From: Myxococcus xanthus
GTDB lineage: Bacteria; Myxococcota; Myxococcia; Myxococcales; Myxococcaceae
NCBI RefSeq assembly: GCF_900106535.1
Contig: NZ_FNOH01000012.1
Coordinates: 124,001 to 188,000, forward strand
Reading direction: 5' to 3'
Length of the DNA: 64,000 nucleotides
The notes below the pieces were generated by a model. The model was not told the DNA's origin. It saw only the letters and a program-made list of their open reading frames with translations, and made no database searches. Below are positions 7,335 to 52,233 of the stretch, one piece after another. How positions within the stretch are numbered: position 1 is the first letter of the stretch; each line of letters begins with the position of its first letter. A program made the position numbers and the translations under genes.

Positions 7335-8915
7335 TCAGAAGATGAAGGGGAAGCGGATGGGCTCCTGCATCCGCACCTGATGCACCGGGAACTTCCAGCG
7401 GCGCACCACGTCCTCGATGCAGCGCGACAGCAGCGTGGCGCGCAGCGCGGCGGTGTCCATGGACACGTTGAGCGTCTCACCGCTGGGGAGCACCGACCAC
7501 TGCACCATGAAGCGGCCACCGGCCTCCATCGGCGTGCCCTGCGCGTGTGAACGCAGGCACGCGGTGATGGCGGGCTGGTTCGTCAGCACCACCTGCTTCA
7601 CGTCCTCCGGCGTGAGGTGCTCCTTCACGTCCACCGCCGGCGGCACGTAGACGGTGCGCGCGGGCGCCTCCGCCTTCGAGAGCTCCGCGTCCGCGTCTTC
7701 CGTGAAGCCCAGCTCGCGCGCGAAGGCCTCATCGAGGTCCGCGTACGGCCCCTTCTCCGACGTGTCCTCCTCCACGGCCTCCGCGGCGACATCACCCGGT
7801 GACGTCGCGATGGCGTCCTGGGACGCGGCGCCTGCCGCACCCGTGTCTCCGAAGTCGAGCTCGACGGGCGCGGGAGGCAGAGCCGCCGCCTCGTCTGGCT
7901 TCGCCGGGGCCTTGCGCTTGAAGGGCGCGGGGCTCACCACCGCGAGCGACTCCGCCACGGGCGTGCCCGGGCTTCGCGCCGGCTCCGAGGCAGGCACGGA
8001 GGCGCGCAGTCCCTTCGCCGCATCCCGAAGAAGCGCCGAACCAATGCCCGGCTGCGTGCTGGAGACAGCCATGGACGACGCGGCACCCGAGACGTGCGAC
8101 GAGGCAGCGAGCGCCGCGTCCGGCGATGAACCGCTCACGGCGGCCTGCGTGGACGTGCTCGCTCCAATGGCGTGCCCAGACGAAGCGGCGGTGCGCATCG
8201 CGGCGCCGGCGCCAGCCGACGACAGGCCCGCCTGGGCGTCACCGCTCGTGCCAAGGACAGCGCCGTGCGCCGTGCGCCGGATGGCATCATCGACGCTCGC
8301 CTGCGTCCCCGTGGAGTCACCACCACGCACGTAGAGTCCCGCGACCAGCAGCAGGCCCGCCGCCAACGCGCCCACGGCCGCCGCGCCCATCAACTCCCCG
8401 GGGCGAAGTCCCAGGACACTGACTGTCTCGGTCGCGCTCGCAGCGCGCCACCGCGCGGATTCCAAGTGCGCATGCGGCGGCGCATCACCCCACATGGGCG
8501 CATCCGGCGCACGCGCCAGCACATTCTCCGCACGCGGCGGCAACAAGGCGCCCAGGGACGTCACCTTCTTCGCTCCAGGCGAAGTGCGCATCCACTCGGG
8601 AATCTCCACCGTGGGCTCGGGCAACACGTCCAGCGCGCGCGAGGTGGACAGCGGCAGGCGCTCCAGCCATTCCGTCTCCTCCTCCGCGAGTGCGAGCAGC
8701 GCGCGCATTCTCGCGGAAACATCCGTCACGGGTGCAGGGTCTTCCACGGCCGCGTCGTCTTCACATGCCTCGAGAAGCTCACGGTCGAGATACGCGTCGA
8801 GGTCTCCCTCGAGCGCCTCGCTCACGCTCACCGTGCCGCGCGGCTCCAACGCACCTGGAGTGCCTTTGCCCTGAGTACGGAACTGCCCTTCAGCTCCGGA
8901 AAGAAGCTCGTCCAC
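7335..8915 (-). CDS. AgmX/PglI C-terminal domain protein (TonB-like)
   Basis: 526 residues from a GTG at 8915 with GGGAGGG upstream. Cytoplasmic N-terminal ~165 residues are acidic (LDAYLDRELLEACEDDAAVE). One membrane helix follows (GAAAVGALAAGLLLVAGLYV), then a long low-complexity Ala/Ser/Pro linker, then a C-terminal ~95-residue domain (DVKQVVLTNQPAITACLRSH to RRWKFPV and IRFPFIF). That domain is the AgmX/PglI type found in myxobacterial gliding-motility and TonB-like energy-transducing proteins; WKFP is its signature. Two Cys (in ITACL and SRCIED) may form the usual disulfide. A periplasm-spanning transducer is inferred; the partner motor is not nearby. Confidence 0.85.
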   Translation of the reverse strand: MDELLSGAEGQFRTQGKGTPGALEPRGTVSVSEALEGDLDAYLDRELLEACEDDAAVEDPAPVTDVSARMRALLALAEEETEWLERLPLSTSRALDVLPEPTVEIPEWMRTSPGAKKVTSLGALLPPRAENVLARAPDAPMWGDAPPHAHLESARWRAASATETVSVLGLRPGELMGAAAVGALAAGLLLVAGLYVRGGDSTGTQASVDDAIRRTAHGAVLGTSGDAQAGLSSAGAGAAMRTAASSGHAIGASTSTQAAVSGSSPDAALAASSHVSGAASSMAVSSTQPGIGSALLRDAAKGLRASVPASEPARSPGTPVAESLAVVSPAPFKRKAPAKPDEAAALPPAPVELDFGDTGAAGAASQDAIATSPGDVAAEAVEEDTSEKGPYADLDEAFARELGFTEDADAELSKAEAPARTVYVPPAVDVKEHLTPEDVKQVVLTNQPAITACLRSHAQGTPMEAGGRFMVQWSVLPSGETLNVSMDTAALRATLLSRCIEDVVRRWKFPVHQVRMQEPIRFPFIF

Positions 8916-9134
8916 ACGCCCTCCCTCGCCCGCGCTGCACTCACCGGCCCTGACTTCGACAGAGCGTGCAACGTAGGAACCGGTCCTCGTCGCGCCACCC
9001 CCCACTGTTCGTCCTAGAACGCTGTGCCCCCTGGAGGCACCGCGCCTGTCCACTGCTTCACCGGGTCAACTCACGGCGGATGGCGCACGCGGCCCCGCAA
9101 CTTCGCGCTCTGGAAATTCATTCCGCACGCGCGC

Positions 9135-9559
9135 ATGCGCGCCGTACTCACGACACCTCATGTATCAACCACGCCTGCATCCACCCTGCTGGCCGTCTCT
9201 GCGTGCGGCCCTGTTTCCACCCGGAGTCAGTCACCCATGAGCACGACTTCCGCGGCGCGGACGGCGCGGAGATGAACCGTGACGCGTTCATCGTGGGCAT
9301 CGCCGAAATCCCCGGTGACATCACGTCCGTCGAAGCCGAAAAAATGAAGTCTCACGTCTTCGGTGACACGGGCGTGCTGGCTGGCGTCCAGCGCTCGCGG
9401 GTGCGCATGACGGACGGCAGCGAGGTCACCGACGCCGTGTACTTCACCGACGTGTGGCAGCGCCGCGACGGAACGTGGCTCATGGTGTTCGCGCACAGCA
9501 GCCCGGCCGCGCCCACCGAGGCTCAGCAGGCGCCCGAAGGCGCACCGCAGCAGCAATAA
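9135..9559 (+). pseudogene. broken SnoaL/DUF4440-like lipoprotein
   Basis: Two frames share one apparent gene. From 9135 a frame encodes a possible lipoprotein signal ending LLAVSAC, then stops at 9275. From about 9240 another frame encodes the second half of an NTF2-like (SnoaL/DUF4440) domain: FRGADGAEMNRDAFIVGI, then YFTDVWQRRDGTWLMVFAHSS. The first ~40 residues of the domain (its N-terminal helices) are missing from both frames. The simplest reading is an internal deletion that also shifted the frame. A short protein from the ATG at 9272 remains possible. Confidence 0.5.
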
Positions 9560-9694
9560 CCCTGCCCCTCCGTCCCACGAGGACGTTGCGCACCCCACAC
9601 CCCGATGCACGGCGTCAGGCGCCGCGCACCCCACATCGCAGCGCCTCCTACGCGGAGCGCGCATCCTGATACACTCCGAGACCGGGAGGCCGTC

Positions 9695-10276
9695 ATGATG
9701 CAGCTCTTGCACGGTGAGCGCCGGTGGCGCCTGCCGGCCCAGGGGGAAGACTGGCTCATCGTACCGTCCGTCGACCTGGAGCGGCTGAAGCACCCGCAGG
9801 CACCGGTCCCTGACGTCTTCGTCAGCTCCGCCTTGAAGCGCTGGCTGGCCACCTCCGCCGCGCACACGTTGTATGCGATGTACGAAGCGCTCGGAGGCAG
9901 CCGCCCGCTAGGGCTGTCCGGACTGGAGCGCGGCCGGTACGAGCAGCGCCTTCAGCAGCGGCTCACCGAGGCCTTCGTGCATGGGGAGCTGGTGGCGCTC
10001 CCCATGGCGCGTCCGGTGCTGCTGCCCACGCCCTGGCCGGAACCACCGCCGCTGACGTCCGAGGAAACCCCCGTCGAGGAACAGACGTGGCTGGCCATCG
10101 AGCTGAAGGACGAGGAGGGCAACCCCATCCCCCACGCGCGCTACCTGGTGACGCTCCCGGATGGGAGTACGCGCGAGGGCACCCTCAACAAGAATGGCTA
10201 CGCGCGCGTGGACGGCGTGAATCCCGGCCAGTGCCAGGTCACCTTCCCGGAGCTGGACGGGCAGAGCTGGTCATGA
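9695..10276 (+). CDS. protein with C-terminal transthyretin-like domain
   Basis: 193 residues; the ATG at 9695 has GGGAGG upstream. Residues ~1-110 have no recognised domain (MMQLLHGERRWRLPAQGEDW, Leu/Arg-rich helices later). Residues ~130-190 (WLAIELKDEEGNPIPHARY, then LPDGSTREGTLNKNGYARVDGV, then PGQCQVTFPELDG) form the small transthyretin-like beta-sandwich often attached to type VI secretion VgrG/PAAR-related proteins. No secretion genes are near, so a T6SS role is only a hint. The last 38 bp overlap the convergent pepP gene. Confidence 0.65.
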   Translation: MMQLLHGERRWRLPAQGEDWLIVPSVDLERLKHPQAPVPDVFVSSALKRWLATSAAHTLYAMYEALGGSRPLGLSGLERGRYEQRLQQRLTEAFVHGELVALPMARPVLLPTPWPEPPPLTSEETPVEEQTWLAIELKDEEGNPIPHARYLVTLPDGSTREGTLNKNGYARVDGVNPGQCQVTFPELDGQSWS

Positions 10277-11642
10277 CGGCCTCGATGTCCGAGGCCTCCT
10301 TGGGGATGGCGGCGGTAAGCACCTCGTTGCCATCCGAAGTGACGAGCACGTCGTCCTCGATGCGGATGCCGCGCACGTCCGCGTAGCGCGCCAGCACGTC
10401 GCGCTGGAGCCTGTCCTTCGCGCGCGCCATGAGCCGCGCGTCCGACAGGATGGCGGGCACCTGGTACATGCCCGGCTCAATCGTCACCGCCATGCCGGGC
10501 TCCAAATCGCGGTCCAACCGCAGCGAGCGGTGACCGAACTCCGGCGAGCGCGTGCGGCCCGGCGCATAGCCCGCCCGGTCCCCCAGGTCCTCCATGTCAT
10601 GCACGTCCAGCCCCAGCAGGTGGCCCACGCCGTGCGGGAAGAAGAGCGCGGTGACGCCGTCCACCACCAACTCCTCCGGGTCCCCACGGAGGATGCCCAA
10701 CGCCACCAGGCCTCGCGCCATCTCCCGGTGCGCGGCCAGGTGCACGTCGCGGTAGCGCGTCCCCGGCTGGACCGCGTCGATGCTGGCTTTCTGCATGCGC
10801 AGCACGACGTCGTACAGCTCGCGCTGCGTCGTGCTGAAGCGGCCCGTCACCGGCCACGTGCGCGTCACGTCACAGGCGAAGCCGGCCGGGCTTTCACCAC
10901 CCACGTCCGCCAGCAGCAGGTCTCCCTCGCGCAGCGTGTGGTCATAGCGCAGGTTGTGCAGCACCTCGCCGTGCACGGTGACGATGGGCTGATACGCCGG
11001 CCGCACGTCGCGCGAGACGAACTCCGCCTCCATCGCGGCGCGCACCGCGGCCTCCAGGATGCCCGGCCGCGTGGCGCGCATGCCCGCCATGTGGGCCAGC
11101 ACCGTGACTTCCGCGGCCTGACGAAGCTGCGCCTGCGCGGCGTCGTCATGGCGAAGCCGCAGCGCAATCATCGCGTCCGCCAGCGGCACGTCCACCGCCG
11201 CCAGGTGGCCGGGACGCACCTCGCGGCCCAGCAGCGCGGCCACGTCCAGGCACGTCTCCAGGTCCGGCGTGGGCAGCGCCGCCACGTCGCGGCCCTTCAG
11301 CGCCGCGGGCAGCTCGGCGCGCGAACGCACGGTGCAGCCCGTCCGCTCCGCGATTTCAGCGAAGCCGGGCACCGCGCCGTCCCACAGCGCGTCGTCGGGA
11401 CCGGGCTCGGGCAGGTACAGCGTCCAGCCCTGGCCGTCATACAGACCCACGCCGTCCGGCGTCGCGAGCCCGAAGAGGTAGAGGAAGTGGCTCGACGCCC
11501 GAAAAGGGAACTGGTCGGCGGCGTAGTTGCGAGGACGGGGGCGGCTCGACGCCAGCAGCGCGGCCGCGCTCCCCAGGGCTTTCGCCAGCTGCTCCCGCCG
11601 TCGGGTGAGAGCGGAGCGCTCGGAAACGGAAGGGAGCAGCAT
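10239..11642 (-). CDS. pepP: Xaa-Pro aminopeptidase (M24B)
   Basis: 467 residues, the usual length for aminopeptidase P. It removes an N-terminal residue before proline. An N-terminal creatinase-like domain (ADQFPFRASSHFLYLFGL) precedes the pita-bread catalytic domain. Metal ligands are visible: Asp in LLADVGGE, Asp in CDVTRTWP, His in FFPHGVGHLLGLDVHD, Glu in TIEPGMY and Glu in GIRIEDDVLVT. All five are present, so it should be active with two manganese ions. It is the last gene of a leftward group of signalling genes, 15 bp beyond the receiver gene. Confidence 0.95.
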   Translation of the reverse strand: MLLPSVSERSALTRRREQLAKALGSAAALLASSRPRPRNYAADQFPFRASSHFLYLFGLATPDGVGLYDGQGWTLYLPEPGPDDALWDGAVPGFAEIAERTGCTVRSRAELPAALKGRDVAALPTPDLETCLDVAALLGREVRPGHLAAVDVPLADAMIALRLRHDDAAQAQLRQAAEVTVLAHMAGMRATRPGILEAAVRAAMEAEFVSRDVRPAYQPIVTVHGEVLHNLRYDHTLREGDLLLADVGGESPAGFACDVTRTWPVTGRFSTTQRELYDVVLRMQKASIDAVQPGTRYRDVHLAAHREMARGLVALGILRGDPEELVVDGVTALFFPHGVGHLLGLDVHDMEDLGDRAGYAPGRTRSPEFGHRSLRLDRDLEPGMAVTIEPGMYQVPAILSDARLMARAKDRLQRDVLARYADVRGIRIEDDVLVTSDGNEVLTAAIPKEASDIEAVMTSSARPAPGR

Positions 11643-11657
11643 TCTGGAACCTCGCGT

Positions 11658-12041
11658 TCAGGCACCCAGCGGGCGCTGGGGCAACAGCTTGAAAAGGAAG
11701 GCCAGCAGGTCGTCGAAGTGGCCGCCCTTGCGGAAGACGGCGTCCACCGGCATGTCGATTTTCCCGTCATGACCGGTGACGAAGACGACCTTGGTCTTCG
11801 GCATGTGGTGGCGCACCAGCGGAATCAGCCCCGTCCCAAAGCCGTCACCCAGGCTCTGGTCCAACAGCACGGCGTCATACGCCCGAGGCCGGTTCAATAA
11901 TCCCGCGGCCTCCGAATAGGAGCCGGCGGTGACGACCGCGAAGCCCGCATCCTCCAAAAGCGCGGACAGCGTCATCCGGTTGGAAGGGTCGTCTTCCACG
12001 AGCAGCAGGCAACGCCCGAACGTCCAGTTCGTCTCCATCAC
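11658..12041 (-). CDS. single-domain response regulator
   Basis: 127 residues, one receiver domain and no output domain. Acidic pocket LLLVEDDPSNRMTLSALL, phosphoacceptor Asp in DAVLLDQSLGDG, Thr switch in VFVTGHDG, and a Lys in VFRKGGHFDD. Compared with canonical receivers, the stretch around the Lys lacks the following Pro. Its start overlaps the end of the histidine kinase gene by 4 bp (ATGA), so the two are translationally coupled and probably partners. Confidence 0.88.
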   Translation of the reverse strand: MMETNWTFGRCLLLVEDDPSNRMTLSALLEDAGFAVVTAGSYSEAAGLLNRPRAYDAVLLDQSLGDGFGTGLIPLVRHHMPKTKVVFVTGHDGKIDMPVDAVFRKGGHFDDLLAFLFKLLPQRPLGA

Positions 12042-12766
12042 TTGCTCCCCCGAGTCACGTCATTCCGGTCATGGGCCCCCGCCTCCAGGCCCGTGAATTG
12101 GATTTCCACGTAGGTGCCCCCGGAGGGGCCCGCGCCCAGGTCCAACTGCCAGCCGTGCCGCACGGCCGTCCGGTGGACGATGCTCAGCCCCAGCCCGGCG
12201 TGGTGGGGCCGCGTGGTGAAGAAGGGCTCCAGGGCGCGCGAGTACGCCTCCGCCGCCAGGCCCTCTCCGGTGTCCTCCACACGCAGGCACACGCCGCTTT
12301 CGGCGTCGCGCGTGCGCACCGTGAGCGTCCCGCCGCGCGGCATGGCCTCCAGCGCGTTGTCCACGAGGCAGCGCACCAGCAGCGCCAGGTCCTCCACCTC
12401 CAACGGGACGCCGCCCTGCTCCTTCAGGTCGCGCACCACCTCCACCGACGGCGGCACCTGGGCCTCGGCGAGCGCGCGCTCCACGCCTTCGCGGGCACTG
12501 CACCGGGGACGCGTGCCACCGGTGGGCGGCGGCGCGCGCTTGGAGAGCACGTCCTCGGCGGACGTCAGCTCTTTTTCGATGAGCTGGAAGAAGGTCTCCA
12601 CGCGCGGGTCCGCGCTCCAGAGGTCCGTCTTCTTCACCTGCCGCATCAAGTAGAACGAGGCGTTGCGGATGCTGGCCAGCTTGTTGCGCAGGTCGTGCCG
12701 CAGGGTGGAGGCCACCACGTCCGCCACCGCCGCCCGCTCACGCGCCTGGAGGTCTCTGCCTGCCAT
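12038..12766 (-). CDS. soluble sensor histidine kinase
   Basis: 242 residues with no membrane segment and no sensor domain. The dimerisation helix begins near residue 20 with STLRHDLRNKLASIRNA (phosphorylatable His). ATP-lid boxes are DNALEAMPRGG (N), VEDTGEGL (G1), FTTRPHH (F) and GLGLSIVHR (G2). It must receive its signal through protein contacts, plausibly from the double-receiver protein encoded upstream. It overlaps the next receiver gene by 4 bp and lies 3 bp after the double-receiver gene. Confidence 0.92.
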   Translation of the reverse strand: MAGRDLQARERAAVADVVASTLRHDLRNKLASIRNASFYLMRQVKKTDLWSADPRVETFFQLIEKELTSAEDVLSKRAPPPTGGTRPRCSAREGVERALAEAQVPPSVEVVRDLKEQGGVPLEVEDLALLVRCLVDNALEAMPRGGTLTVRTRDAESGVCLRVEDTGEGLAAEAYSRALEPFFTTRPHHAGLGLSIVHRTAVRHGWQLDLGAGPSGGTYVEIQFTGLEAGAHDRNDVTRGSK

Positions 12767-44449: not shown

Positions 44450-44983
44450 GTGATTCGGCTGCGTTGGACCTGCATCGGGGCGTCTCTGCTGGCAATGGCC
44501 GTGGGTTGTGCGGAGGCCCCCCTCCGCGGCGACCCAACGCCGCCGAGCGTGTCGATTGCGCTCGTGGATGGCGGATGCGACCCGGAAACGAACTTCCGGT
44601 GCTTGTGCGTAGGGAACGTCGGAGACGCGGCGCCCCACCTTCGAGAGATCGGCGTAGACCTGGACGCCCTGCAAAAGAACGGTTGGCCGTGCGTACCGGG
44701 TGACTTCGACCAGGACGGAGAGCAGGACTATGCCTTTCCGGGCGAGGGATACTCGTGCAACCGGCCCGTCCCGGTGCGGGTGCTCTTCACGCGAGGCGGG
44801 CACCTGCGGGAAGTCCAGACGCTGCCGCGGAAGTTGAGCTGCCTTCAGCGCGATGTCTCCAATGACGCGGCCCTGCCCCCGGGACAGGGACTGGTCGATT
44901 GGGGTGAGGGGAATGCCACCTGGCGCTACCGGTTCGACGGCAAGGGCTGGCTCACCACCTCCCATCTCTCCGAGGCGCACTGA
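44450..44983 (+). CDS. lipoprotein, unknown
   Basis: 177 residues from a GTG at 44450 with AGGAGG ten bases upstream. Signal with lipobox (GASLLAMAVGC). Mature part has Cys-rich strands (GGCDPETNFRCLCVGNVGDA, GWPCVPGDFDQDGEQDYAFP, YSCNRPVP, KLSCLQRD) that could form three disulfides; FDQDGEQDY resembles a calcium-binding FG-GAP or dockerin-like loop. No family recognised. Confidence 0.65.
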   Translation: MIRLRWTCIGASLLAMAVGCAEAPLRGDPTPPSVSIALVDGGCDPETNFRCLCVGNVGDAAPHLREIGVDLDALQKNGWPCVPGDFDQDGEQDYAFPGEGYSCNRPVPVRVLFTRGGHLREVQTLPRKLSCLQRDVSNDAALPPGQGLVDWGEGNATWRYRFDGKGWLTTSHLSEAH

Positions 44984-45089
44984 TTCGGTACAACCGGGGC
45001 ACACCGCGCCAGGCCCCAGGCCCGCCTCGGTGTGCCGCGCGAATCCCTCCACTCCGACGCGGCATCGCCGCTGCCGAGGCCTCTTGACG

Positions 45090-45875
45090 ATGACGTTGTT
45101 TCCTCTTCGTTGGTTTTGTGCCGGTGCTCTTCTCATCACCCTGAGCACCGCCTGCACCCGCTCCACGCCGGCCGCGACGGTGGAGCGGAACATCCCCGTG
45201 AAGGCGCAGTCCCAGGGTCCGGACGAATACGTGCTGGCGGATGACGTGAGCGTGCGGAAGCTCGCGCCTGGCGTGTGGCTGCACATCACGGTGGTGACGT
45301 TGGAGCCATTCGGCCGCGTCTCCACCAACGGGCTCATCATCGAGGACGGTGAAACGTCCTTGCTGGTCGACACGGGCTGGGATGCACGGCAGGGCGCGCT
45401 ACTGCTCGACTGGGCCCGGGACACGCTTCGGCGTCCGGTCCGCGCGGCGGTGGTGACGCACTTCCATGAAGATCGCCTCGGTGGTGTTCCGGCGCTCGCC
45501 CCGCATGGCATCCCCGTCCATGGCTTGGAGGAGACGGCACGGATTGCCACGTCCCTGGGCCTGCCAGGCCCCACGGAGACCTTCGCCAAGACGAGCACGG
45601 TGGACTCCCTGGAGCTCTTCTTCCCGGGGGCGGGCCACGCGAAGGACAACATCGTCGTGTGGCACCGGGACAGCGGCGTGCTGTTCGGCGGCTGCTTCGT
45701 GAAGGACGGCGCCTCGACGAACCTGGGCAACGTGGCGGACGCGGACGTAGCGGCCTGGCCCGCGAGCCTGTCGCGGACGCGGCAGCGGTTTCCGGAGGCG
45801 CGCGTGGTGGTCCCGGGTCACGGACAGCCCGGTGGGCCGGAGCTGCTGGGCCACACGGAAGCGCTGCTCCGCTGA
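45090..45875 (+). CDS. subclass B1 metallo-beta-lactamase
   Basis: 261 residues from the ATG at 45090. Signal peptide ending TLSTAC-like (possible lipobox STAC). All B1 zinc ligands are visible: His-Phe-His-Glu-Asp in VTHFHEDRLGGVPAL (H116, H118, D120), His in PGAGHAKDNIVVW (H196), Cys in LFGGCFVKDG (C221, with the B1 Lys224), His in VVVPGHGQPGG (H263), and Asn in LGNVADAD (N233 position). Myxococcus is known to encode a B1 enzyme (MYX-1 type). It should hydrolyse penicillins, cephalosporins and carbapenems in the periplasm. Single gene in chromosomal context. Confidence 0.93.
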   Translation: MTLFPLRWFCAGALLITLSTACTRSTPAATVERNIPVKAQSQGPDEYVLADDVSVRKLAPGVWLHITVVTLEPFGRVSTNGLIIEDGETSLLVDTGWDARQGALLLDWARDTLRRPVRAAVVTHFHEDRLGGVPALAPHGIPVHGLEETARIATSLGLPGPTETFAKTSTVDSLELFFPGAGHAKDNIVVWHRDSGVLFGGCFVKDGASTNLGNVADADVAAWPASLSRTRQRFPEARVVVPGHGQPGGPELLGHTEALLR

Positions 45876-47121: not shown

Positions 47122-47286
47122 TCACACGAAGTGGGCGGCCTCCAGTGCATACCCCTGCGCACGCATCGCCTGCAGTGCGTCACGGAGGCGCGGGGAGATG
47201 AGCAAGCGCGGCTCGGGCCTCAGTTCTCCACGCCGGTCCCCGAACAACGTATCTGAAGCGATTGCCGCGGAAACCGAGAAGGGGCC
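47122..47286 (-). pseudogene. C-terminal remnant of an unknown gene
   Basis: On the minus strand the last ~55 codons before the stop at 47122 read like real protein (GDRRGELRPEPRLLISPRLR, then DALQAMRAQGYALEAAHFV), ending like small Myxococcus immunity-type proteins. Upstream of about 47286 the frame becomes antisense to a forward frame and loses sense; there is no start. Probably a truncated gene at the edge of the low-GC region. Confidence 0.3.
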
Positions 47287-47334
47287 TATGCCCGAAGCGG
47301 TGCCGGAAGCTCCGAGCGCAACGCATTCAGCGAG

Positions 47335-47667
47335 TTGCGCGACATGGCGGTCGCGGAGAAGAACGTGCTTGAGGACAAGTTCCCCGTCACTGGCGTCAGG
47401 GCGCTTACTTCTGCCCCAGCACACTGGGTGACATCGCCACTGGCGATGACTGCCAACCTACCGGAGGTGCAGCGCTTTCTGCTGGGTGAAACAGCGCCAC
47501 AGCGCCTCCTGCAGTCAAGGGAGGCAACGTTAGCCAAACTCCTCCGAACCCCCTACGAGGCAGAGGCGAGGGCGCTACTTCCACAGAGTGAACGCCCAGC
47601 GCTCGCGACCGAAGAACAGAAACACCAGCACGCGCTGGCGGAGGTGCTGGGACGACCTATTCAGTAA
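47335..47667 (+). CDS. possible truncated protein
   Basis: About 110 codons from a TTG at 47335 (or ATG at 47344, 107 codons) to TAA. The sequence (DKFPVTGVRALTSAPAHWVT, LLGETAPQRLLQSREATLAK, ALATEEQKHQHALAEVLGRP) is plausible soluble helical protein. The sensible reading appears to extend upstream of the start codons, suggesting a 5'-truncated gene. Unknown family. Its end overlaps the end of the convergent secreted-protein gene by 11 bp. Confidence 0.3.
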   Translation: MRDMAVAEKNVLEDKFPVTGVRALTSAPAHWVTSPLAMTANLPEVQRFLLGETAPQRLLQSREATLAKLLRTPYEAEARALLPQSERPALATEEQKHQHALAEVLGRPIQ

Positions 47668-48211
47668 CAACGGGCTCAGGGTCAACAAGGTCCATTACCG
47701 CCGGGCGGACGCGCGCCGGGCGATGCTGCGGAGGATTGGCTTTTAGGTAGTCATTGCAAAAGTCATCCAACATTGGCTGGAGCCCTTCACGAATCAGGCT
47801 CCCGACATCATGCCTTGGCACGACGCCATAGCCGCCGCTGGTTGTCCATGTGATTGCGCGAGCAAGGCTTTTTGTCGACAGGAGTCTAACGAACTGACGA
47901 AGCGTGATGTCGACAGAGTAAATCACCGCTTCTTTTGGTTTCCCGATGTCGATGTTCACATGAAGGACGGGATACCCCGAGACCGAAATAGCTTCGTCGT
48001 CAGTGAAAATGCGGATGCCGGAACGTCTCAGGGCGAGTTCGGTCATTGTCCTCACCTGAGCAGTTGTAATGCTGGCATGTGGCGGCAAGCTTTGGACGAC
48101 AATTGCGACACCAGGCAAATAGCGAAGCGATTCGTCGACGTCGTCTGAAGCGGAAGCCGTCGCCCCAAAAGACATCAAAACCAACATCAATATATAGGAC
48201 AGTTGGCGCAT
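47657..48211 (-). CDS. secreted protein, unknown
   Basis: 184 residues from the ATG at 48211, preceded by GGGAGGC. Signal peptide (LSYILMLVLMSFGATASA). Mature part: YLPGVAIVVQSLPPHASITT, ELALRRSGIRIFTDDEAIS, VLHVNIDIGKPKEAVIYSVD, and WTTSGGYGVVPRHDVGSLIR. This alpha/beta pattern resembles small periplasmic proteins of unknown function. Low GC (about 55% in one line counted). It lies 32 bp downstream of the CC0125-type lipoprotein gene, same strand, and is likely co-transcribed. Confidence 0.65.
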   Translation of the reverse strand: MRQLSYILMLVLMSFGATASASDDVDESLRYLPGVAIVVQSLPPHASITTAQVRTMTELALRRSGIRIFTDDEAISVSGYPVLHVNIDIGKPKEAVIYSVDITLRQFVRLLSTKSLARAITWTTSGGYGVVPRHDVGSLIREGLQPMLDDFCNDYLKANPPQHRPARVRPAVMDLVDPEPVVTE

Positions 48212-48243
48212 GCCACCAGCCTCCCGCAGCCCAGGAGGCTGCA

Positions 48244-48915
48244 TCAATCTGCTCCGTCGCCCATCGCGGCGGCCCGTTCCTCGTTCGCGAGGTCTGCCCC
48301 GGAGAGAATGCGGTATCCAAGGGTCAAGGCGGCGCCTGCTTTGGCCGCGTCCACTTGGACTCGGTGCCCCTCTGGCGTGATGGCCGTCACCTTCCCGTCC
48401 CGCACAAGCGCGAGACGCTTGGACGTGTGAATCTGTTCACCAACGGCATCTCCGGGCGCGTTGGCCACCTTACCCGTGGAAACATCGACGACTTGCACGA
48501 GGATGGACACGGACGTCTTAGAGCGGTGCCGATCTGTACGACTCAAAGTGGCGTCGGGTTGTGCCTCCACACAGGCGATGACGCCCGACACCCAGCCCTT
48601 GGTCGGCGCAGGTTGCTGATAGACGTGGAGGGTGTTCCCGTAGCGGTTCGCAACGATGCTGCTTGGCCCCCTCGTAGTTCCGGAGTCAAGACGCCAGTCG
48701 TAGTTGCGGGGCCGACAGATAGCGACGGCGCGCTGATGGAAGTAGTCCTCAAGGGTGTCCACGCTTGTGAAGGCATTCCCCTTCACCTCGATGCGAACAA
48801 TGCCTGGGGCAACCTCGGTGTCTCGGTAGCCCCCGCGGATACCCATTCGCTGGTACGGAGTGGCGCATCCAGCAACCGTCAAAACAACTATCACAGCCCC
48901 CACAAGCCTCTTCAT
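48244..48915 (-). CDS. CC0125/CC1285-type lipoprotein
   Basis: 223 residues. Lipobox in VIVVLTVAGCATPY. The segment GIRGGYRDTEVAPGIVRIEV, KGNAFTSVDTLEDYFHQRAV, AIC follows the CC0125/CC1285 lipoprotein family (Gly-Tyr-x-Asp-Thr ... Gly-Asn-x-x-Thr-Ser ... Asp-Tyr ... Arg-Ala). Family members are small envelope lipoproteins of unknown role. The C-terminal half (SVSILVQVVDVSTGKVANAP, DGKVTAITPEGHRVQV) is extra. First gene of a two-gene leftward unit in the low-GC region; divergent from the HipA-like gene. Confidence 0.75.
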   Translation of the reverse strand: MKRLVGAVIVVLTVAGCATPYQRMGIRGGYRDTEVAPGIVRIEVKGNAFTSVDTLEDYFHQRAVAICRPRNYDWRLDSGTTRGPSSIVANRYGNTLHVYQQPAPTKGWVSGVIACVEAQPDATLSRTDRHRSKTSVSILVQVVDVSTGKVANAPGDAVGEQIHTSKRLALVRDGKVTAITPEGHRVQVDAAKAGAALTLGYRILSGADLANEERAAAMGDGAD

Positions 48916-49057
48916 GTTCCCCAGCCTCCCGCACGGCCTGAACGCCCGTCAACGCCCAGCCCTACCACCCTGGGGTGAGGGTGCCCCAGAGTGGGGAGGC
49001 TGAAGGGGCCTTGCAGGAATCCGTCCTCCCGGTCAAAGCTGGTCTTCGGGAGGGTGA

Positions 49058-49819
49058 ATGGCGAAGGTGCCGCGACCAGCGCACGCAGCGACGCTTTGGG
49101 GCGACCGAATCAAGCGGGTTCCAAGCGTCGTTCCGGTGGCGGAAGTGCTCGTCCCCAATGCGTGCGATGCCACCTACGCAATGGATGGGGACCGGCATTG
49201 GGTGCACAAGCGCCTACTGGGCGCCGATGGGCTTCTTGCGGAAGCGCTTGGTCTCCTGCTTGGTCAAGCGCTTGGCGCGCCCGTCCCGGAGGGAGCCGTA
49301 ACAGGCCCGCCTGACGACACCACCTGGCTCAGCGAAGTCATCCCGGACATCCAGCATTGGGACCGTCAGCTTGCGAACTTCATCGTCAACTATCCCGATG
49401 TCGGACGGCTGCTGGCACTCGACGCCATTCTCCTCAACGATGACCGCCATGAGGGGAACCTCGTCTTGCAGGCGACGGCGGAGCATGAGTACTCGCGCCG
49501 TGCCTGGGGCATCGACATGGCCAATGCCCTGGCTGGTAGGCCCACCGACTTCGCTGCGGCGGGCATGAATACGCCGAGCATCGCAAAGCTCGTCGACGGG
49601 ATTCCGGTCACGCTCATCCAAGAGGGGGCAATGCTGGCCGCTGTCCAGGCCCAGTCCCTCAGCACCTACCTCGTGAAGTCGATGGTGATGGAGGCCTGCT
49701 CGCTCTCTCGTGAACCCCGTGAAACAGAGGATGTGCTCCTGGGTGCGCTCCTCAGTCGAATGGCGCGTGCGCCGGAGCTCGTAGCAGAGTATCTTGAGAA
49801 AGTAGGTTCGCGCCCATGA
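49058..49819 (+). CDS. HipA-like kinase-fold protein
   Basis: 253 residues; CGGGAGGGTGA precedes the ATG. The kinase-fold core is visible: an N-lobe Lys in GDRHWVHKRLL, then LLALDAILLNDDRHEGNLVL, matching the Asn-x-Asp-Arg-His-x-x-Asn catalytic loop of HipA kinases, and WGIDMANAL, the Asp-containing metal-binding segment. It lacks the HipA N-terminal domain and is much shorter than E. coli HipA (440). The 3' end overlaps the next gene as ATGA. HipA-type kinases phosphorylate proteins such as glutamyl-tRNA synthetase; the target here is unknown. Confidence 0.8.
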   Translation: MAKVPRPAHAATLWGDRIKRVPSVVPVAEVLVPNACDATYAMDGDRHWVHKRLLGADGLLAEALGLLLGQALGAPVPEGAVTGPPDDTTWLSEVIPDIQHWDRQLANFIVNYPDVGRLLALDAILLNDDRHEGNLVLQATAEHEYSRRAWGIDMANALAGRPTDFAAAGMNTPSIAKLVDGIPVTLIQEGAMLAAVQAQSLSTYLVKSMVMEACSLSREPRETEDVLLGALLSRMARAPELVAEYLEKVGSRP

Positions 49820-50622
49820 CTGCCCGATTTCGACTCGTTCACTTCATGCCTGACCCCTTCTCGGGCATGCGTGTGCCAGTCGCAGCGCTCGTGCAGCAAG
49901 GGAGTGGCGTACGGGTTGTTCGGGCGCCACATGCTGCTGGTCCCGGCTGCGTCGGCGGCCTTGCTACGTGGCACAACATGCAGGGACTCCTTCGTGGCCT
50001 AGAGTCCGTCGAGAGATTCGACCAGTTGCCAATGAGCCTGGGACCGCATGCCGTCCTTGGTGGGCAGCTCGCCGTTCCAGCACAGGTGAACGACCCGCTG
50101 TCCTGGGTGGCGAAGTTCATCCTCCCTCAGCGCCCCCTCGCTGCCGGCGATGCGCGGGAGTCCGCCTTCCCATCCCCTCGACGAGACTCAGTGGGGAATC
50201 TCTTCTTTCAGACATGGCGCGTAGAGCAGTTCGTGGAGCGCCGCTTCAAAGGGGAGACACTGGGCCTCGAAGATGAGTACGCCGGCAACATCACGCATGC
50301 TGTCATAGGTGCGGAAGAACTTATGTTGATGGAGCCCGTCCTCGGACTCCGGCATGACGTGCAAAACCAGCTTGAGGAAATCAGTAAGAGCTTTCTTGCA
50401 TGGGAGAAACTCCTAGAGCGAAAGCAGGCTCGACGTAAGCCGCGATTCGTCGCTTTCATGTTCTCAAGTCCGCGAGCGACCGTGCGCGAGGCAAAGTCGT
50501 TCCTTGGCATCGCAGAGGCCGAAGTCATCGACGTAGAGGTCCCGACTGAGCGGGACCGTTTTGTTAGCGACATCCGCCGAGTCGGACTCACCAATCCTGT
50601 ACACGCCCATCTTAGAAGTTAA
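49816..50622 (+). CDS. DUF3037-like partner of the HipA-like kinase
   Basis: 268 residues, start overlapping the kinase stop by 4 bp. N-terminus FRLVHFMPDPFSGMRVPVAA matches the start of DUF3037 proteins (hydrophobic-Arg-Tyr/Phe-x-Pro-Asp-x-x-x-Gly-x-x-x-x-Val), which are regularly encoded next to short HipA-like kinases. The C-terminal half is helical (LEEISKSFLAWEKLLERKQ) with a strand RKPRFVAFMFSSPRATVRE. GC is low, about 50% in one line counted. Role unknown; antitoxin, adaptor or substrate are all possible. Confidence 0.65.
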   Translation: MTARFRLVHFMPDPFSGMRVPVAALVQQGSGVRVVRAPHAAGPGCVGGLATWHNMQGLLRGLESVERFDQLPMSLGPHAVLGGQLAVPAQVNDPLSWVAKFILPQRPLAAGDARESAFPSPRRDSVGNLFFQTWRVEQFVERRFKGETLGLEDEYAGNITHAVIGAEELMLMEPVLGLRHDVQNQLEEISKSFLAWEKLLERKQARRKPRFVAFMFSSPRATVREAKSFLGIAEAEVIDVEVPTERDRFVSDIRRVGLTNPVHAHLRS

Positions 50623-50891
50623 GGGGTGTCCATCGCATGTGCGGATGATGGCAGGCGCCTCCGTCACGGAGTGAAGGCTACCGACGAGGGGCGCACTCCT
50701 GTCCCCGGTATCCAGGAAATGGGTACAGCGTTTCCATTCCCAGGGTGTATTCGCTGAGCTGTCTGATTGCCGCGCCTGCCTGCTGCCCCGAGGGGAACCA
50801 CCCGAAGTACGGGAGAGCCGATTTCGTGAACAGGTTCGTTAAGCTGCCGCACTTCGGGTTGAGGCGTTCCGCTCGTACTCCTCGGGTCTGA
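50623..50891. other. degenerate sequence, no gene
   Basis: About 270 bp with short frames only, none with a ribosome site. Fragments such as LSDCRACLLPRGEPPEVRES hint at a decayed immunity-type reading, but I cannot support a gene. Confidence 0.4.
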
Positions 50892-51130
50892 CATAGCCGC
50901 GAGTTCGGGTGCTCAGAAATCCGCCCCGATCAGGTCTTCTATTTCTACCGGTTGTCATTGGATGGGGAGAAGATCCCACCGGACGCGAAGCTCTTCAGGC
51001 CCAGGGGAAAAGCAATCTCGTTGTCATCCGGGAAGATCTTGCCAATGACATCCTCCGCGCGGGTTGCGATGGAATGATCTTCCAGGAGATGGACGACTAC
51101 GGCCGTGAATGGGGAAAGCTGCGAGAATGA
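50892..51130 (+). pseudogene. frameshifted Imm11-like immunity remnant
   Basis: Two frames join into one sensible C-terminal domain: EIRPDQVFYFYRLSLDGEKI then PPDAKLFRPRGK in the first, and after a one-base shift near 51005, SNLVVIREDLANDILRAGCD then GMIFQEMDDYGREWGKL. The ending (a strand, Arg-Glu-Asp-Leu, then Ala-Gly-Cys-x-Gly-Met-x-Phe) resembles Imm11/DUF1629 immunity proteins. An in-frame TGA at 50889 blocks any upstream part and no start exists. The TGA overlaps the ATG of the next broken gene. Confidence 0.6.
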
Positions 51131-51889
51131 ATACCCCGAACATGCGTGCCGTCGAGGCAGCCGCGAGCGCCAAGGCCGCGTTGCTGGAGGAAGAGCTGGA
51201 GCAGGGCCAACGTCCGCCGGACGAGGTCGAGCGCATCCTCTTCCATCTCTCGCGGCACACGCGCGCCGCCGCCATCGCCCAGTTGCTCGCGTATGCGGAT
51301 GGAGCCACCTTCCGCGATCGGCTGGTTCGCTCCGGGCAGCCCCACCGCCGGCGGCTCCAATGGGCGACGGGCGAGCTGCGGCCCTTCAACCGCTTCACCG
51401 CGACGGGCCATTACGGGCCGCTCTGCGACTCACTGGCCCCGGGGTGGGCGAGTTGGCCCACGACATTGCCCGCCTGTCGGCGGACACGCCCGTGAAGGGC
51501 CACGAGTTCGAGGAGGACTTCCTCTAGGCGCGCCTGCTCGGCCTCCTCATCGCCACCGAAGAAGACGCGGTACCCGGTCGCGCGGAGCCACTGCTGGACG
51601 CCTTGGAGCGGGGCATGGACGGTCAGGACTTCCCCCGGCTGCCCACATGGTGCCGGGCCCTCCTGGTGCGAGGACAGGAGGGCATTGACGCCACCTTCCA
51701 AGCGCTCCTGAAGGAACGAGAGCACCACTGCCACACGCAGGCGAAATCCTTCATGCCCAGGGATGAAGAGTCGGAGACGGAGCCCTTCATCTTCGTGGGG
51801 GCATGGCGCTCCTGCATCTGGCCGAGCGTCGCGGGCTCTCGGCGCAGTCCGACTATCTCTTCCTGCCCAGCCTCGCCCGTGCGGGCTGA
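51127..51889 (+). pseudogene. Imm49-like immunity gene with multiple lesions
   Basis: The original gene can be followed across lesions. ATG at 51127 gives MNTPNMRAVEAAASAKAALL to FNRFTATGHYGPLCDSLA; near 51440 the reading shifts frame to VGELAHDIARLSADTPVKGH then EFEEDFL; a TAG at 51525-51527 stops it; the same frame continues ARLLGLLIATEEDAVPGRAE to EPFIFVG; near 51800 it shifts again to MALLHLAERRGLSAQSDYLF then LPSLARAG and stops at 51889. The assembled protein (~250 residues) matches the Imm49 family of polymorphic-toxin immunity proteins. Two frameshifts plus a stop make it dead. Confidence 0.7.
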
Positions 51890-52162
51890 AACGCTGGTTT
51901 GCCATCATGCGCACGGGCAACCAGGCCACTCGCGGATTCCATCCTGTCAGACGCCACGCCGCGTCCCGTCGCTCGACCTCGGCGGAATCCAGAGGCGTCA
52001 CGGGGCTGTCCCCGGGCTCCCAACTCCGGGCAGGGGCGCACTGCGCCCAGGTGTCGGCGAGGGTGTTCCCGGGTCCATCGCTCGCAGTGGTTTCCTCATG
52101 TCGGACCGCCCGGCCGGACCCCCGTCGGGTCCAACAGGAAGCAGGCGCCAGATGCGCCTGGC

Positions 52163-52233
52163 TCCGAACTAGCTCACTGGTAGAGCACAGGTCCAAATCC
52201 TGCGGAGAAGGTTCGATTCCTTCGTTCAATCCA
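52163..52233 (+). tRNA. degenerate tRNA (pseudo-tRNA)
   Basis: D-arm TAGCTCACTGGTAGAGCA is good (GCTC/GAGC) and the T-arm GAAGG-TTCGATT-CCTTC is perfect, followed by a CCA at 52231-52233. The anticodon arm CAGG-TCCAAAT-CCTG has only four pairs and lacks T33; it would look like a tRNA-Trp-type arm (CCA anticodon) if two bases were deleted. The acceptor pairs only four of seven (GAAC/GTTC), and there is no discriminator base. I judge it a decayed tRNA or a recombination remnant at the end of the accessory region. Confidence 0.5.

Follow-up and report, generated by a model that had tools for sequence, protein, structure and literature searches.

Can two overlapping genes whose products escape the HMM libraries used here be a kinase toxin and its neutraliser, and what would such a pair be for? 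The question is raised by a locus in a 64,000 nt stretch of DNA (hereafter the window; contig NZ_FNOH01000012.1, nt 124,001–188,000) from a 9.26 Mb genome of Myxococcus xanthus. The first gene (nt 49058–49819, + strand; 253 aa including the stop) encodes a small kinase of HipA/CtkA/PI4K type, and a Shine-Dalgarno-like GGGAGGG can be read from the sequence ahead of its ATG (nt 49048–49054, +). The second gene, termed the partner (nt 49816–50622, +; 268 aa including the stop), starts within the end of the first. Both frames are open and the junction is ATGA, a 4 bp stop/start overlap, so the coordinates and frames bear out the coupling described in an earlier sequence-only reading of this DNA. 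The explanation we favour, and consider reasonably probable, is that a kinase toxin and its neutraliser are encoded here as a HipAD-type module serving phage defence.

Neither protein is recognised by standard models. For the kinase, all Pfam, NCBIfam and PADLOC models were below threshold: PI3_PI4_kinase (PF00454) reached E = 0.046, below its cut-off, HipA_2 (PF20613) gave no match at E ≤ 1, and the PADLOC matches were weak and directed to PDC-M03A, with none to PDC-M66. NCBIfam and PADLOC models were likewise below threshold for the partner, and PDB sequence searches with the window proteins returned nothing decisive. The sequence-only reading had named searches for the HipA_C and DUF3037 families as a test of itself, and in these both window proteins fell short of the curated thresholds.

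Among ten aligned kinases of this kind, PI3_PI4_kinase was the only family to touch all of them (best E = 8.8e-6), HipA_2 matched three at E ≤ 1 (best 3.3e-4) and HipA_C also three (best 0.018). When alignments were compared by hhalign, the kinase alignment matched that of HipA_2 with Prob 97.3 and E = 1.7e-11 over 118 columns, a region that includes the Lys, Glu, catalytic Asp/Asn and metal Asp of the kinase core, and swapped controls gave 0.57 and 0.35. The value was 2.3e-11 against a HipA_2 set that included the HipA of HipAD, and 1.2e-10 against the same set after L005 and L004 had been removed from the query (the L005 row comes from an interrupted frame, and its first residues are out of frame). 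Lys51, Glu62, Asp129, Asn134 and Asp153 of the window kinase are aligned with positions that do not vary within the HipA_2 set, and the enzyme looks active because these residues are present. The NDDRHEGN motif and the metal-site Asp pointed out in the earlier reading are both there, the latter being Asp153. At the profile level, and only there, the window kinase thus appears as a distant relative of HipA_2 kinases; the earlier designation as HipA-like holds in this sense, and not in that of a HipA_C or HipA_2 match at curated thresholds.

The structure model of the kinase (pLDDT 90.6) aligned best with CtkA of H. pylori (fold Z 15.7) and PI4KII (about 14.4), followed by actin-fragmin kinase (12.8); HipT (11.5) and HipA (10.9) both ranked below CtkA and PI4K II, to which sequence identity is 12–14%. 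HipA structures could be aligned with the model only from about HipA residue 64 or 144 onwards, in agreement with the earlier description of a short kinase lacking the extra N-terminal part of HipA proper. The structural ranking, and the reach of PI3_PI4_kinase across all aligned kinases, would suit a signalling pair instead of a toxin, in which a PI4K/CtkA-like kinase acts on a protein or lipid substrate and the partner is its scaffold or substrate. This is quite unlikely in our judgement, given the strong HipA_2 profile match and a patchy distribution, variable insert and interrupted kinases (described below) that are unlike a core pathway. To our knowledge, neither CtkA nor PI4K II has a partner of the kind seen in the window.

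The partner can be divided into an N-terminal module (about residues 1–112; nt 49816–50151, +) and a C-terminal domain (about residues 119–260; nt 50170–50595, +). None of 11 partners compared matched any Pfam family at E ≤ 1, DUF3037 (PF11236) and DUF1829 (PF08862) included, and no HTH antitoxin of HipB type was found among them by Pfam. A search of the genomes for DUF1829 gave no match even for its controls and carries no weight. The DUF3037-like character of the N-module comes from hhalign and from two further proteins, L150 and L084. Compared by hhalign with short and long DUF3037 sequences together, the N-module gave E = 3e-4, over residues 3–29 only, and a score of 28.6 against a maximum of 16.9 among 60 column shuffles. 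L150, a bridging protein from the same order (G053), exceeds the Pfam cut-off for DUF3037, and its YTLVQYWPDP...VNIGVLLF is close to RLVQYVPDP...VTIGALV of the window family. It matched the N-module profile by hhalign with E = 3.3e-5; by hmmsearch with the N-module model it ranked above 3000 shuffles, yet with an E of only 0.025, or 0.14 when the model was rebuilt without L084. A relationship between the partner N-terminus and DUF3037 is therefore partly supported, with the match confined to about 27 residues, and the DUF3037-type start proposed earlier stands at profile level while finding no Pfam counterpart.

For the C-domain the assignment comes from a structure model of the partner, which had a mean pLDDT of 85.8, but a pTM of 0.57. 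VIA-align gave Z scores of 9.5 with BsoBI, 9.3 with PspGI and 8.8 with Cfr10I, and the best Foldseek E for the partner was just 6.3e-3. Two BFVD matches spanned most of the partner (E = 7e-8 and 4e-7, TM 0.26–0.29), both to unnamed proteins; matches to HIV protease covered about 38 residues and were taken as chance. The invariant residues of the C-domain include Glu173-Pro174, of which Glu173 is the sole acidic one, and neither an Asp nor a Lys is invariant. As modelled, the C-domain would have a PD-(D/E)XK-like fold in which the catalytic triad is not conserved. Its homology to the C-domains of HipD-type proteins was not established, the scores being at shuffle level: comparison of the whole partner with long partners of known pairs scored 22.2, under the shuffle maximum of 23.7, and the C-domain alone 18.5 against 18.2 (E = 0.047).

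The alignment with restriction endonucleases raises the idea that the roles are reversed, the partner being a PD-(D/E)XK nuclease effector that the kinase regulates by phosphorylation. Open partners beside interrupted kinases, reported below, are also compatible with it. Against it, no catalytic Asp or Lys is conserved, Glu173 stands alone as an invariant acidic residue, and one locus (L004) retains the kinase with the N-module alone; we regard reversed roles as very improbable.

Among known systems, the closest in working appear to be HipAD and PDC-M66. According to the available sections of PMC12548924, a pair of a HipA-like kinase and a DUF3037 protein beside retron Sda1, named PDC-M66 in PADLOC, defends against phage Bas51 independently of the retron RT and ncRNA; deletion of HipA abolishes defence and deletion of DUF3037 is toxic. 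The available part of PMC13092281 describes DS-6/HipAD as combining DUF3037 with DUF1829, with predicted kinase and DNA contacts, and a catalytic mutant that loses defence. The main text of a HipA phylogeny (PMC8262856) contains no reference to DUF families, CtkA or Myxococcus.

HipAD resembles the window pair in having the kinase first, a 4 bp overlap, a HipA_2-related kinase, a DUF3037-like N-module and a separate C-domain. An annotated case occurs in phage PhiR5_1 (L149, PV340545.1, nt 7915–9488), where HipA toxin and HipD antitoxin genes overlap by 4 bp beside cI and encode 249 and 275 aa, compared with 253 and 268 aa in the window. The window pair differs in being too distant for HMMs, in giving no DUF1829 match, and in a partner that is not significantly alignable with HipD-type proteins past the N-terminus. 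PDC-M66 (HipA_2 with a long DUF3037) is alike in being a two-gene system and in protein lengths (models of 270 and 281 positions). Its models PDC-M66A/B match all three known pairs tested (L089, L091 and L092), whereas the window proteins gave no match at E ≤ 1 and a related kinase, L002, reached only 0.0045. The HMM and DUF1829 membership tests having failed, the pair was filed as a distant variant of HipAD/PDC-M66 and not as a member; that it works most like them is what we infer from the likenesses listed.

The 4 bp overlap and gene order of the window recur in six annotated HipA_2/DUF3037 pairs, and a 23 bp overlap was seen in a Parabacteroides pair and in a second pair of the window genome itself (L071, G000:C2:795064–796168). 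The latter is a core pair of short HipA_2 and DUF3037 proteins; HipA_2 and DUF3037 were both found in the same 53 of 99 genomes of the order, and 43 of these are among the 50 genomes of the family. Compared with this widespread pair and its short partner, the window pair represents a sporadic, divergent second lineage. HipBA and HipBST share the HipA-type kinase fold with the window pair, and HipT is likewise short, but in the window no HTH antitoxin is recognised and the partner has a two-domain, DUF3037/PD-(D/E)XK-like composition.

By analogy with the defence systems above, toxicity, neutralisation, sensing and phage defence can be inferred for the window pair as follows. The small HipA-like kinase, encoded first, would be the toxin, and the partner would bind it through the DUF3037-like N-module and hold it off. 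The C-domain, PD-(D/E)XK-like and with no conserved active site, may be a variable part for sensing or DNA binding. Infection or another disturbance would lift the restraint, the kinase would then phosphorylate a host factor, and the resulting growth stop would abort the infection.

The kinase is present in 11 of the 195 Myxococcota genomes searched, and the partner profile found the same 11 with E values below 1e-20, two more genomes appearing only at 0.009 and 0.07. Within the 61 closest genomes, five have the kinase, and it is these five that have the partner. When genomes were scanned with just the window kinase as the query, nothing was found; the kinase alignment as the query gave seven loci, of which four were already known and L084 was new (L085 and L086, with a kinase match over 24 residues only, were left out). 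The partner had no match in plasmids or phages, nor did the window and L084 kinases in plasmids, or the kinase alignment and the L084 kinase in viral contigs. The partner family was detected on two putatively viral IMG/VR contigs (L087 and L088; 34–36% identity), in both cases towards the contig end.

Fifteen loci were compared (the window, L002–L005, L011–L016, L018, L084, L087 and L088), and ATGA or GTGA lies at the kinase stop in all of them. In L003 the 4 bp overlap applies only with a GTG start, as an alternative ATG overlaps the stop by one base. Against the nearest relative (L011, genome G138), dN/dS was 0.227/2.14 for the partner, where dS is near saturation, and 0.223/0.85 for the C-terminal half of the kinase. 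As dN is well below dS in both genes, kinase and partner are under purifying selection. Kinase and partner distances correlate across eight open-frame pairs (r = 0.976, with none of 5000 permutations as high; r = 0.963 without L016). The recurrence of the pair with its overlap, the co-varying distances and the low dN together indicate that the association is more than chance.

Damage to the two genes is unequal. The kinase is interrupted or incomplete beside an open partner in four of the 15 loci: L005 and L018 show frame changes, L088 keeps only the last third of the kinase (that of L087 is open), and L011 has only the second half. In L011 an assembly break is possible, since the first half of the kinase sits on another contig (L017). 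The converse, a partner cut down beside an open kinase, was seen once, in L004 (G056), where a 113 aa partner stops right after the N-module. No C-domain was seen behind it by tblastn or by eye in three frames; the L004 partner may be a truncation, because a tblastn match continues for a few residues beyond the stop. In none of the 15 loci does an open kinase lack an N-module. This asymmetry of damaged kinases and kept partners, in small numbers and draft assemblies, fits an antitoxin role for the partner.

A different ending of the N-module is found in L084, a single case on a Myxococcota MAG contig. Here the kinase is followed, with a 4 bp overlap, by an uninterrupted protein of 1313 aa (L084, nt 8701–12639). 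It starts with the N-module (hmmsearch E = 3.3e-12, L084 having been kept out of the model), continues as a NACHT-like NTPase and ends in a nuclease-like part. The NACHT region matched PF05729 with E = 9.2e-5 and 22.8 bits, the cut-off of 26.7 not being reached, and the C-terminal IDIDAVAQ...FIEVKRS reads by eye like an active PD-(D/E)XK motif. Seven of the 195 genomes hold relatives of this NACHT body. One such relative, L115 (G022, from the genus of the window), shares the L084 body from residue 112 on (E = 5e-23) and carries a TIR domain at its N-terminus (PF13676, E = 1.4e-17). L116 (G026, same genus) gives the same TIR-NACHT reading, and no TIR was seen by eye in the other five.

Where two relatives have a TIR domain, L084 thus has the N-module, an arrangement suggesting that the module brings in the kinase as an effector; the domain arrangements likewise suggest that the N-module docks the kinase onto interchangeable sensors. 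A wider generalisation is possible, though we put it forward tentatively and think it somewhat doubtful: the DUF3037-like module could be an adaptor that docks and inhibits HipA-like kinases in general and is exchanged among sensors that are absent in L004, PD-(D/E)XK-like in the window and NACHT-nuclease-like in L084, with L084 being an NLR-like sensor in control of a separate kinase effector.

These comparisons would add to kinase defence of the HipAD/PDC-M66 kind a branch invisible to the HMM libraries used, and suggest that DUF3037-type partners may be modular, the front being constant and kinase-binding and the back open to exchange. If the NACHT-fused form acts in the way suggested, it would link HipA-like kinase toxins with NLR-type sensors. 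That combination was not found in the literature searched; in the one paper there on HipA, NACHT and phage defence, the passages on NACHT concern other systems. L084 and its TIR-NACHT relatives make a sensor-swap experiment directly possible.

The window pair lies in a low-GC, variable insert of 4.8 kb (nt 47145–51944), delimited by flank comparison and GC. The low GC content remarked on in the sequence-only reading was confirmed (pair 0.617, insert 0.623, flanks 0.69), and GC3 is 0.72 and 0.65 in the two genes compared with 0.91 and 0.95 in two neighbouring housekeeping genes. In three of six close genomes compared (L137, L139 and L141) the flanks are 18–45 bp apart and the site is therefore empty; L136 and L138 carry a different insert of 1.4 kb, and L140 has a stretch of 10.5 kb. 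Next to the insert comes an SPFH gene, which each of the 27 searched genomes of the genus contains, synteny being compared in six. Flanking immunity genes in decay had also been proposed. Fragments are indeed present, but no Pfam family was matched by any of them, and the immunity label was not confirmed. They comprise a C-terminal gene remnant (nt 47122–47424, −), near-identical to the C-terminus of a 305 aa protein in the alternative insert of L136 (nt 11757–12674, −), and short ORFs 3′ of the pair that by eye have the appearance of a broken gene (nt 50909–51848, +). The L136 gene, which like the remnant matched no Pfam family, we take to resemble a Cys-motif immunity protein.

In the 11 regions of the relatives, GC3 of the pair genes is about 0.64–0.81 by crude calls, mostly lower than in the neighbours. 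The neighbour scan covered 111 of 132 ORFs (at least 100 aa, cut at 420 aa), the other 21, mostly likely shadow ORFs, being excluded by hand. Among the best 25 of 100 PADLOC families, PD-T4-6 and further kinase models predominated, accompanied by mad3, mad6 and MkoA, the best 25 of 115 Pfam families were mostly housekeeping, and none of these best 25 in either library was matched by more than three of the 111 neighbours. Among these best families the scan gave no clear defence island around the relatives; a single defence gene may have escaped it, because matches were counted per family and not assigned to individual neighbour ORFs. Low-GC3 pairs at various chromosomal sites, lacking a clear island and sparsely present (11 of 195 genomes of the phylum), are what would be expected of a kinase toxin-antitoxin pair that serves addiction to a DNA segment or growth modulation and has no phage role. 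We hold this to be unlikely, since the nearest functional analogues, as described in the available parts of PMC12548924 and PMC13092281, defend against phages and the fusion of the N-module with NACHT and nuclease-like parts in L084 points to immunity. For the HipAD-type defence module that we prefer, the earlier proposal of an accessory toxin-antitoxin or defence pair is upheld by the variable insert and the published analogues, and weakened by the lack of a clear defence island near the relatives.

Two further features were observed near the insert. A gene of the metallo-beta-lactamase superfamily (PF00753, E = 1.2e-17) lies at nt 44928–45875 (+). Just beyond the other end, a tRNA-Leu(caa)-like sequence of 70 nt (nt 52163–52232, +) is possibly a remnant or an integration mark.
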